Assembly (NCBI GenBank): GCA_013180605.1
Contig: QBUL01000184.1
Location: 1-45,703, forward strand
Length of the DNA: 45,703 nucleotides
Reading direction: 5' to 3'
Source of the DNA: Candidatus Methanophagaceae archaeon GoMg1
Lineage (GTDB): Archaea > Halobacteriota > Syntropharchaeia > Alkanophagales > Methanospirareceae
Both the position numbers and the translations under genes were made by a program. Below the pieces are notes generated by a model, which searched no databases, was not told the origin of the DNA, and worked only from the letters and a program-made list of their open reading frames with translations. Positions 16,786 to 38,575 of this stretch are shown here, one piece after another (position 1 is the first letter of the stretch; each line of letters opens with the position of its first letter).

Positions 16786-17976
16786 ATGAGGGATGTAGCC
16801 ATAATAGGGATTGGGCATACGAAATTTGGAAGAGCATCGAAAACGTCACTGGAGTTGTTTTCAGAAGCGGCACTGCAAGCTGTGGACGATGCAGGAGTGG
16901 ATTTAAAGGACATAGAGGCGTTATTTCAGGGTGCTGCGCTCCCCGGTTTTGAGGAAGGGCAGGTAACGCCCGCGGCATTCTCTGCTGCTGAACTCAACTT
17001 GGGTGAGGGTTCTATACCCGCGACGCGCTACGAAGGTGCTTGTGCCTCTGCATCAATCGCAATACGTGAAGCTGCGGAATGGATCGCCTCAGGACAATGC
17101 GATATGGTAATGGCAGGAGGGGTGGAAAAAGCGCTGTTGATGGGAACACTATTTGCAACGAGAATATTTGCGATGGCTTGCCATGCACCAACCGAGGGTC
17201 CAGCAGGGCTAACTTTTCCAGGCGTTTTCGCAATGGCTGCAAGGCGGTATTCCAAAAATTACGACATTTCCATGGACAAACTGCGAGAACAAATGGCGCT
17301 CGTTTCTGTAAAGAATCACAAGCATGGTGCTTTGAATCCGCTGGCACAGTTCTATAAGAAGATGGGCGACCTGAAGGTAGAAGAAGTAATAAATTCAAAA
17401 CTGGTGGCAGACCCACTGACGGTTTTAGATTGCTGTCCTTTTTCTGATGGTGCTGCGGCTATCGTGCTCTGCGCCGCGGAAGAAGCGAGAAAATACACGG
17501 ATGACCCTGTTTACATATTGGGCACCGGTCAGGGTTCAGGTGGAGCATTATCAAAGATGAAGGACTTAACAAAGCCGGATTCGCGAATAAAGTCTGCGAG
17601 AATGGCATTTAAACATGCGGGGCTCAGCCCTTCGGATATAGACGTGCTTGAACTCCACGATTGTTTTACAATTGCGGAACTGATAGCGTTGGAGAGTATG
17701 GGTTTCTTTGGATGGGGCGAAGCGGCAGAGGCAACTGCGGATGGGCAAACAGAATCAGGCGGGAAAATACCTGTGAATATGTCCGGAGGTTTAATCGGCA
17801 AAGGGCATCCGATAGGAGCAACGGGAGCATCTCAGGTTTACTGGATAGTTAAGCAAATGAGAGGAGAAGCAGCAAAAGGGAATCAAATTGACCCTGTTCC
17901 TGAGTACGGGATGACTGACACGCTGGGCGGAGACTTCGGGACGCTATGTCATATTATACTCGGGCGGGGGAAATAG
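16786..17976 (+). CDS. Archaeal thiolase (acetyl-CoA C-acetyltransferase type)
   Basis: The protein has 396 residues. RYEGACASASIAI holds the nucleophilic Cys, ELHDCFTIAELIALE the first active-site His, and GHPIGATGASQVYW the second. FGTLCHIILGRGK at the end provides the acid/base Cys. The form is the archaeal thiolase that partners a DUF35 OB-fold protein, usually encoded next to it. It condenses two acetyl-CoA or cleaves 3-ketoacyl-CoA. HMG-CoA synthase is not adjacent here; the neighbours are DUF35 and a 3-hydroxyacyl-CoA dehydrogenase, which points to acyl-CoA breakdown or synthesis. An AAAGGGTG site precedes the ATG. The stop codon is the first base triplet of the S23-element repeat. Confidence 0.9.
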   Translation: MRDVAIIGIGHTKFGRASKTSLELFSEAALQAVDDAGVDLKDIEALFQGAALPGFEEGQVTPAAFSAAELNLGEGSIPATRYEGACASASIAIREAAEWIASGQCDMVMAGGVEKALLMGTLFATRIFAMACHAPTEGPAGLTFPGVFAMAARRYSKNYDISMDKLREQMALVSVKNHKHGALNPLAQFYKKMGDLKVEEVINSKLVADPLTVLDCCPFSDGAAAIVLCAAEEARKYTDDPVYILGTGQGSGGALSKMKDLTKPDSRIKSARMAFKHAGLSPSDIDVLELHDCFTIAELIALESMGFFGWGEAAEATADGQTESGGKIPVNMSGGLIGKGHPIGATGASQVYWIVKQMRGEAAKGNQIDPVPEYGMTDTLGGDFGTLCHIILGRGK

Positions 17977-18305
17977 GGACTAGGGATTAGGGACTAGCCA
18001 CTAGGGACTAGGGTATGGGAAAAATGATAAATTCGTATCAGGATCTGGAAGTATGGAAGAAGGCAATGGAGTTGGTAACGGATATTTATAAAGTCACACA
18101 AACTTTTCCAAAGGAAGAACTTTATGGCATGACAAATCAACTGCGCCGGGCATCTGTGTCAGTACCAGCGAATATAGCTGAGGGGTGGGGGCGAGGAATT
18201 ACAAAAATCATTGAAATAAGCAAGATGATGAACGCCTTAATAAACAGCTTAAAACATCCCTAACTCCCAATCCCCAGTGGCTAGTCCCTAGTGGCTATTG
18301 GCTAA
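17974..18305. mobile_element. S23 element with inverted degenerate repeats
   Basis: The left edge (17974-18014) is made of TAGGGACTAGGGATTAGGG-type units starting exactly at the thiolase stop. The right edge (18259-18305) holds the opposite strand form (AGTGGCTAGTCCCTAGTGGC). They bracket one four-helix-bundle gene in a 330-base unit between two genes that normally sit side by side. The edges can pair as imperfect terminal inverted repeats, suggesting a mobile or passively mobilised unit. Confidence 0.6.
18024..18263 (+). pseudogene. Four-helix-bundle S23 protein, internally deleted
   Basis: From the ATG at 18024 the frame encodes 79 residues: MINSYQDLEVWKKAMELV, then YGMTNQLRRASVSVPANIAE and GWGRG, the signature of the S23/avd-like family first found in 23S rRNA intervening sequences. 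Full members have about 115-120 residues and continue through a third helix (ALGSLAE-like). Here GWGRGITK passes directly to IIEISKMMNALINSLK, the final helix, so roughly 35-40 residues are missing without loss of frame. A folded four-helix bundle is unlikely. Confidence 0.75.
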
Positions 18306-18309
18306 TAAA

Positions 18310-18780
18310 ATGATGACGACAAAAAAGGTGATAGGAAAAGAGCAAGAAGAAATAGAGAAAGAATATAGGGAATACACGGTTCTAAGCCTCGCCGAGTATG
18401 AAGAAGGCTTGAGGAACGGGAAATTGTTAGGGTTGAGATGTGCGTCTTGTGGCGGGATAACCTGCCATCCAATGCCTGTTTGCCAGTGGTGTGGTGGCAG
18501 AATCCTTGCGAGAGTGGAATTATGTGGTGCAGGGGAGTTGACGACATTTACGGTAATCCGCGTGCCATCAGAGGGATTTGAGGAGGAGGCGCCTTATATC
18601 CCCTGTCTGGTGAAGACAAAGGAGGGACCTTGTGTTGTAGGGCGGCTTGATTACGATACAGAAAGTGCAACGCAAGAACTAATCGGTAAGCAGGTGAAGA
18701 TGAGCGGTACGCACACCTGTAAAGGCGATAAGTTTTCAGACGGGGCTCATACGTGCCCGGTATTTAAAATACAAGAATGA
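18310..18780 (+). CDS. DUF35 OB-fold acyl-CoA-binding protein, thiolase partner
   Basis: From the ATG at 18310 the protein has 156 residues. A zinc ribbon (LRCASCGGITCHPMPVCQWC, four Cys in two CxxC pairs) at about 37-58 precedes an OB-fold (ELTTFTVIRVPSEGFEEEAP, then VVGRLDY). In the archaeal thiolase/HMG-CoA synthase complex this protein bridges the enzymes and holds the CoA chain. The upstream S23 element has replaced the usual short spacer, and no clear ribosome site remains before the start. A TTG at 18298 is inside the element repeat and is less likely. Confidence 0.85.
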   Translation: MMTTKKVIGKEQEEIEKEYREYTVLSLAEYEEGLRNGKLLGLRCASCGGITCHPMPVCQWCGGRILARVELCGAGELTTFTVIRVPSEGFEEEAPYIPCLVKTKEGPCVVGRLDYDTESATQELIGKQVKMSGTHTCKGDKFSDGAHTCPVFKIQE

Positions 18781-38431: not shown

Positions 38432-38575
38432 TCCTTCTCCCCCTTCTTTTCCCCCTGTCATCCTTTCTTAAATTCTTAAATTCTTAAATGATATAATAAG
38501 ATTGATACTTCATAACCTATAATACTTATTTATAAATACTGATGTTTTTTTTTATAGGTTTCGAAAGAACGAGAA

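Follow-up and report, generated by a model that had tools for sequence, protein, structure and literature searches.

A decayed S23 four-helix-bundle gene between inverted heptamer arrays in a Methanophagales operon is probably a copy of a very small mobile element

Introduction

Genes of the S23 family are widely annotated as "four helix bundle protein" and are unexplained. Ribosomal RNA intervening sequences (IVSs) that carry an S23 open reading frame (ORF) have been described from Coxiella, Leptospira, Brucella, and Xanthomonas; their distribution is sporadic, and their mobility has been suspected since 1990 to 1993 (PMC4990558). rRNA intervening sequences have been termed possible transposon remnants for more than 25 years, and heptamer arrays dispersed in the genomes of cyanobacteria and Xanthomonas have no accepted origin. 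Here, we analyzed a 45.7-kb stretch of DNA (the window) from a Methanophagales (ANME-1) archaeon, in which an S23 gene bounded by heptamer arrays lies between a thiolase gene and its DUF35 partner. The anatomy of S23 loci ties S23, the rRNA insertions, and the dispersed heptamers together, and they may all represent one overlooked kind of jumping element.

An S23 gene with inverted arms fills the thiolase-DUF35 spacer

The thiolase gene (16786 to 17976, plus strand; an ORF with the Pfam domains Thiolase_N and Thiolase_C_1) ends in a TAG stop codon (17974 to 17976, plus strand) that doubles as the first three bases of an array of seven-base units, just where an earlier note on this DNA had placed their beginning. 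This left arm (17974 to 18013, plus strand), recognized in the sequence, by arm comparison, and in a scan for 7- and 8-base lags, is a tandem series of degenerate heptamers of the forms TAGGGAC, TAGGGAT, and TAGCCAC, with the G-rich strand reading inward (TAGGGAC-TAGGGAT-TAGGGAC-TAGCCAC-TAGGGAC-TAGGG). As also claimed, the units return in inverted form before the DUF35 start: the right arm (18258 to 18304, plus strand), which pairs with the left one, consists of CCCTAGT, GGCTAGT, GGCTATT, and variants (CCCTAAC-TCCCAAT-CCCCAGT-GGCTAGT-CCCTAGT-GGCTATT-GGCTA) and ends 5 bases ahead of the ATG (18310) of the DUF35 gene. The latter (18310 to 18780, plus strand; assigned from sequence and Pfam) encodes a ChsH2-like OB-fold protein, the partner of the thiolase, and the element (17974 to 18305) fills the spacer between the two genes exactly. 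The left array is the strongest 7/8-base periodicity of the window: it scores 23, the 99th percentile being 12.5; the right array reaches 15 in the same scan. The arms are complementary at 77% over 39 nt and at 88% over the best 26 nt, and the predicted RNA fold of 17974 to 18305 (−95.4 kcal/mol; z, −2.74) has them paired. An Rfam search of the element returned nothing near a gathering score and so no known RNA family.

The only gene between the arms is a shortened S23 ORF of 82 amino acids (18015 to 18263, plus strand), whose stop codon lies inside the right arm. Its membership in the family, which the earlier note had proposed, is borne out by PF05635 (E = 6.6e-24; 84.6 bits versus a cutoff of 33.8) and by the four-helix-bundle model TIGR02436 (80.9 bits versus a cutoff of 24), with the PF05635 match confined to profile positions 1 to 56 of 106; the central part of the protein and a large share of its C-terminal half are missing. 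Compared with full-length copies at the same site in four relatives (G003, G004, G020, and G050), about 110 to 125 nt are absent after 18198. The junction, GAGGAA/TTACAA (18193 to 18204, plus strand), is common to the window copy (genome G000), to G005 of the same genus, and to G006 of another genus. The internal deletion that had been read from the sequence is thus real, and it is in frame in the window; in G005, one extra A at the same junction puts the gene out of frame, so the in-frame state says little. The window copy is probably decayed and encodes a broken S23; it is probably dead or, at best, nonautonomous and movable by an intact S23 encoded elsewhere. Its suggested status as a nonautonomous derivative gains from the finding of end-retaining deletion derivatives at several sites among ANME-1 relatives and of one junction in two genera, with movement of the deleted copy being putative.

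S23 reached the spacer separately from its neighbors

A comparison of the spacer in related genomes, which the earlier note had proposed, gave several relatives in which it is empty and others with full-length or differently deleted elements. Besides the four full-length copies and the deletion shared by G000 and G005, other S23 remnants occur in G023, G061, and G012, and G007 has an array alone. The spacer is empty and array free in G018, G021, G010, G009, G015, and G013, and no S23 is present there in G017 and G002.

Within one genus (G003 and G004), identity is 93% for thiolase and 92% for S23. Across genera, thiolase identity is 79 to 80% and DUF35 identity 78%, versus 88 to 92% for S23; at third codon positions, comparing G020 with the genus of the window, identity is 0.49 to 0.51 for thiolase and 0.78 to 0.86 for S23. 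Thiolase and S23 evolve alike within a genus, so a lower rate of S23 evolution is no explanation for its greater similarity across genera, and this similarity argues that S23 arrived apart from its neighbors. On these identities, S23 reached the thiolase-DUF35 site separately from the flanking genes, at least twice, or was exchanged there.

Inverted heptamer arms are a general feature of S23 loci

The bases beside S23 genes, compared for 54 copies in ANME-1 and for 76 loci spread over many phyla, have a period of 7 and in part of 8. Lag-7 autocorrelation is 0.40/0.38 beside ANME-1 S23 genes and 0.41/0.42 beside the diverse ones, versus 0.26 in far flanks. When 71 diverse and 50 ANME-1 loci were tested individually against shuffled sequence, a significant 7/8-mer array was present upstream in 62 of the 71 diverse loci, downstream in 57, on both sides in 53, and on at least one side in 66, versus 2 to 3 in the far flanks; clear arms were lacking on either side in 5/71 diverse and 6/50 ANME-1 loci. 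Compared in inverted orientation, arms from the same locus resemble each other far more than mispaired arms do (median score, 39, versus 16), the own pair lying above the 99th percentile of mispaired values in 47/76 loci and being the best of all possible partners in 41/76.

ANME-1 S23 genes that are at least 75% identical and lie at different sites have a cross-arm score of 39, versus 14 to 16 in the other classes, a result equaled in 0 of 500 permutations. That near-identical S23 genes at different sites share a unit argues that the arms belong to the element. Other S23 genes of the window's own genome carry units of the AGCGGTTT, AGGTGTG, and TAATGGG types, and the 14 S23 matches in a single Nostoc genome have many different units. 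These comparisons indicate that each S23 subfamily has its own arm unit, which travels with S23 to unrelated sites. The GGGACTA-type ends that the earlier note had expected on other S23 genes were therefore found as inverted heptamer arrays whose unit is not always GGGACTA; a universal GGGACTA end was rejected, the unit being specific to the S23 subfamily. A strand rule by which the G-rich arm would precede S23 was also dropped as a guide to S23 orientation, since an inverted pair looks alike from both sides. Viral contigs in IMG/VR carry S23 genes with arms, and INPHARED phage records gave no S23 match with one archaeal query.

S23 elements recur at other conserved sites

The 3' end of the eIF2-gamma gene is a second such site: G000 and G003 hold different deletion derivatives of the same S23 subfamily, G001 has no element, and in G005 (contig C163, locus L236) an S23 arm is followed directly by a transposase-like gene. 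A third site, at the 3' end of a gene that we take to be truD, has an octamer unit of the AGCGGTTT type; S23 is full length in G000 and G005 and deleted in G001, G004, and G011, G008 has an inverted full-length copy, and other genomes have remnants or nothing. Two genomes assigned to different genera, G002 and G062, are almost identical at the truD-like locus (L270 and L273), reflecting either transfer or misbinning.

Outside the archaea, S23 elements lie directly before nuoD in Rhizobiales (L191, L200, L201, and L233) and directly before an sdhB-like gene across Bacteroidetes (L156, L159, L160, L163, L170, L171, L182, L205, and L211), with arm units that differ by species in the former and also vary in the latter. 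There is no sign of recent exchange at these nuoC/nuoD and sdhA/sdhB sites, where S23 is about as diverged as its neighbors, and the pattern looks like long vertical residence.

S23 fragments bearing arms of the TAATGGG/ATTACGG type repeatedly interrupt nucleotide-sugar dehydrogenase-like coding sequences (L136 on G000:C119, L004, L007, and L008), at corresponding places in two gene copies, with large parts of the gene seemingly replaced. On another contig of the window's genome (L011; G000:C57, 1490 to 1580), a TAGGGAA-type array followed by a TCACACC-type run lies apparently in frame within a coding sequence.

Solitary arms, insertion position, and distribution

Pattern searches recovered solitary arrays of the window element's unit, with no S23 gene, on contigs C129, C145, and C113 of the same genome and, on C104, two arrays lying close together in inverted orientation. 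The unit GGGAATA has 53 pattern matches at more than a dozen places in the Anabaena genome of L232; one inverted pair flanks S23, and the arrays are identical to the arms of that gene. In the window itself, a short tandem TCTTAAAT repeat with no S23 close by (38464 to 38490, intergenic) is the second-strongest 7/8-base periodicity.

The array starts at −10 to +15 relative to an upstream stop codon in 48/64 diverse and 18/38 ANME-1 loci, counts that are uncontrolled for position in the spacer and hence describe the loci rather than prove targeting. The gene before S23 is codirectional in 47/50 ANME-1 and 52/71 diverse loci.

Of 51 genomes of the family, 36 carry S23 genes or fragments, at more than 100 places, eight of them in the window's genome. 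Reverse transcriptase genes are found in 23/36 S23-bearing versus 3/15 S23-free Methanophagales genomes, an association that may reflect general mobile-element load. None was detected in G020, G018, and G053, which are S23 rich and well completed, and these genomes led us to reject, as a strict rule, that S23 must share its genome with a reverse transcriptase.

A very small mobile element as the best explanation

We consider it probable (about 0.7) that the spacer holds the decayed copy of a very small mobile element in which S23 is the sole gene. That S23 genes belong to such an element, as the earlier note had suggested, is supported by the empty sites, by the inverted arrays on other S23 genes, and by S23 being more alike across genera than its neighbors. 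Comparison gives these elements discrete boundaries, empty sites, separate arrivals, arms that travel with the subfamily, end-retaining deletions, and solitary arms. Mobility is compatible with the deletions, with the arms that stand alone, and with the copy that lies inverted at the truD-like site.

How the element moves can be proposed only in outline. An intact copy consists of S23 between two inverted arrays built from 7- or 8-base units, about 0.4 to 0.5 kb in all, and sits mainly in the spacer just behind a stop codon, usually in the direction of the preceding gene, a codirection that makes transcription by the host operon likely. The arms may then pair as a long hairpin, in RNA or single-stranded DNA, which the S23 protein would bind, recruiting an enzyme, supplied by the host or by a different element, that does the copying or joining. 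Full-length elements encode S23 only, with no known transposase, integrase, or reverse transcriptase. A target-site duplication was sought and none could be defined, empty and filled sites being too diverged and the arms too repetitive. Deposited structures of S23 relatives (2GSC and 2RLD) have five chains each, and 2GSC was published as a homopentamer of four-helix bundles (PMC4990558). The rRNA IVSs with an S23 ORF would be the same element seated in rRNA genes.

Other histories could leave some of these traces. S23 might be an ordinary, vertically inherited small gene of operon spacers, structural or regulatory, with arms that are a by-product of replication slippage and hairpin-templated correction; its recurrence between nuoC and nuoD in Rhizobiales and between sdhA and sdhB in Bacteroidetes, diverged like the neighboring genes and with species-specific units, is what such a gene would produce. 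However, near-identical S23 genes at unrelated sites share an arm unit, empty sites lack arrays, the genes around the thiolase site are much older than the S23 between them, and the truD-like site has an inverted copy. Already weakened by the cross-genus identities and the shared units, vertical inheritance appears improbable as the general account. Chance or slippage beside a pseudogene, with a meaning limited to this locus, would suit a broken S23 copy, but the same architecture recurs in this genome, in 50 further ANME-1 copies, at about 70 diverse loci, in cyanobacteria, and on viral contigs; the per-locus array test refutes this idea, and we give it next to no weight.

Two further possibilities concern the route of spread. 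Homologous recombination between dispersed arrays, inside one cell or once foreign DNA has been taken up, might be the main way in which S23 cassettes are swapped, with the arms as landing pads and no element-specific enzyme. Such swapping accounts for the repeated occupation of the same sites, the array-only site in G007 and the solitary arrays, the inverted copy, and the mosaic similarity between copies, but it offers nothing to recombine with at sites that are empty and array free (G018, G021, G010, G015, and G013), and ordinary recombination works poorly on degenerate arms about 40 bases long; as the main route it is possible, if rather doubtful. The element might instead act at the RNA level: removal of the hairpin arms from the transcript, in bacteria by an RNase III-like activity, would spare the operon any harm from the insert, and a reverse transcriptase supplied in trans would copy the folded RNA back into DNA, with S23 acting like Avd in retrohoming. 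The strong fold of the arms, the codirection with the preceding gene, the weak profile match of S23 to Avd, and the counts of reverse transcriptase genes all agree with this, as does the excision of rRNA IVSs by RNase III (PMC4990558); against it stand the S23-rich genomes with no detected reverse transcriptase, the chance that the association mirrors mobile-element load, and the general lack of RNase III in archaea. The route in trans is attractive, the data do not require it, and we regard it as unlikely in this full form. Within the preferred reading of a small mobile element, exchange between genera at one site could be recombination between arms rather than transposition.

More tentatively, and at slightly less than even odds, S23 genes may constitute a widespread class of minimal mobile elements in bacteria, archaea, and viral genomes, with a folded single-stranded intermediate bound by S23. 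The S23-bearing rRNA IVSs would be its rRNA instances, and cyanobacterial STRRs and Xanthomonas GGGAATC arrays its solitary or nonautonomous remains.

Relation to known systems

The closest likeness is to the rRNA IVSs, which have a sense S23 ORF inside complementary termini that form a stem, as the window element does. In Coxiella, the S23 ORF is accompanied by a 28-bp terminal inverted repeat stem and by upstream GACAGAT heptamers in variable number, and one strain has a large ORF deletion (PMC4990558); this is the only paper in the open literature in which we found S23 and heptamers together. The difference is one of place: the IVSs are inserts in rRNA genes, and RNase III excises them from the transcript without ligation, whereas the window element lies between thiolase and DUF35 genes in an archaeal protein operon, has arrays on both sides, and is part of a multisite set with subfamily-specific units. 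S23 genes have been noted inside cas operons (PMC3936711) and in rRNA insertions of CPR bacteria (PMC11270868).

G-rich heptamer arrays that are scattered over the genome and often form convergent pairs are likewise known from cyanobacteria, as short tandem heptamers, and from Xanthomonas, where convergent pairs of GGGAATC repeats number 70 in Xcc and 75 in Xac (PMC4692102). They differ from the S23 elements in that most arrays are solitary, and that study reported no general association with mobile elements and described the inverted pairs of Xanthomonas without an origin; its passages on the arrays do not mention S23 (PMC4692102). Our search of the literature, outside which subscription journals lay, found no publication uniting S23 genes, rRNA IVSs, and dispersed heptamer arrays. 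Since no publication found joins these strands, we place the element with the S23 intervening sequences and leave a separate class of mobile element as a possibility. Beyond the earlier note, the present comparison adds the link to dispersed arrays, the variation of arms at one site, the position at the stop codon, and the range across phyla.

In REPIN/RAYT systems, small inverted repeats flank one presumed mobilizing gene, and many solitary repeats lie elsewhere in the genome; RAYT is a Y1 tyrosine transposase with known chemistry. The S23 element is also a single gene between inverted repeats with solitary copies elsewhere. It differs in that S23 has no known catalytic activity and its repeats are tandem heptamers that vary by subfamily; no RAYT gene lies between the arms, only S23. 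The window element resembles a miniature inverted-repeat transposable element (MITE) in being short, with inverted ends and an internal deletion that retains them, and its ends are shared with longer coding copies, the full-length elements of G003, G004, G020, and G050. It differs from a MITE in that no parent element with a known transposase was found, the full-length copies encoding S23 only.

A mobile element with no recognizable catalytic gene would be of interest in itself. Because each S23 subfamily predicts its own arm sequence, binding and mobilization in trans can be assayed directly.

Avd, which is essential for the retrohoming of diversity-generating retroelements, and S23 are related four-helix-bundle proteins (PMC10053308). 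S23 scores 26.5 bits against the Avd profile (cutoff, 80) and 24.5 bits against bAvd (cutoff, 40), below the cutoff in both cases, and appears to be a distant relative of this retroelement accessory protein. The S23 element differs from a diversity-generating retroelement in having no reverse transcriptase, template repeat, or variable repeat. In an Anabaena genome (L308; G068:C82), an Avd-like relative of S23 lies between very strong inverted arms of the ATTGACA type (score, 187).
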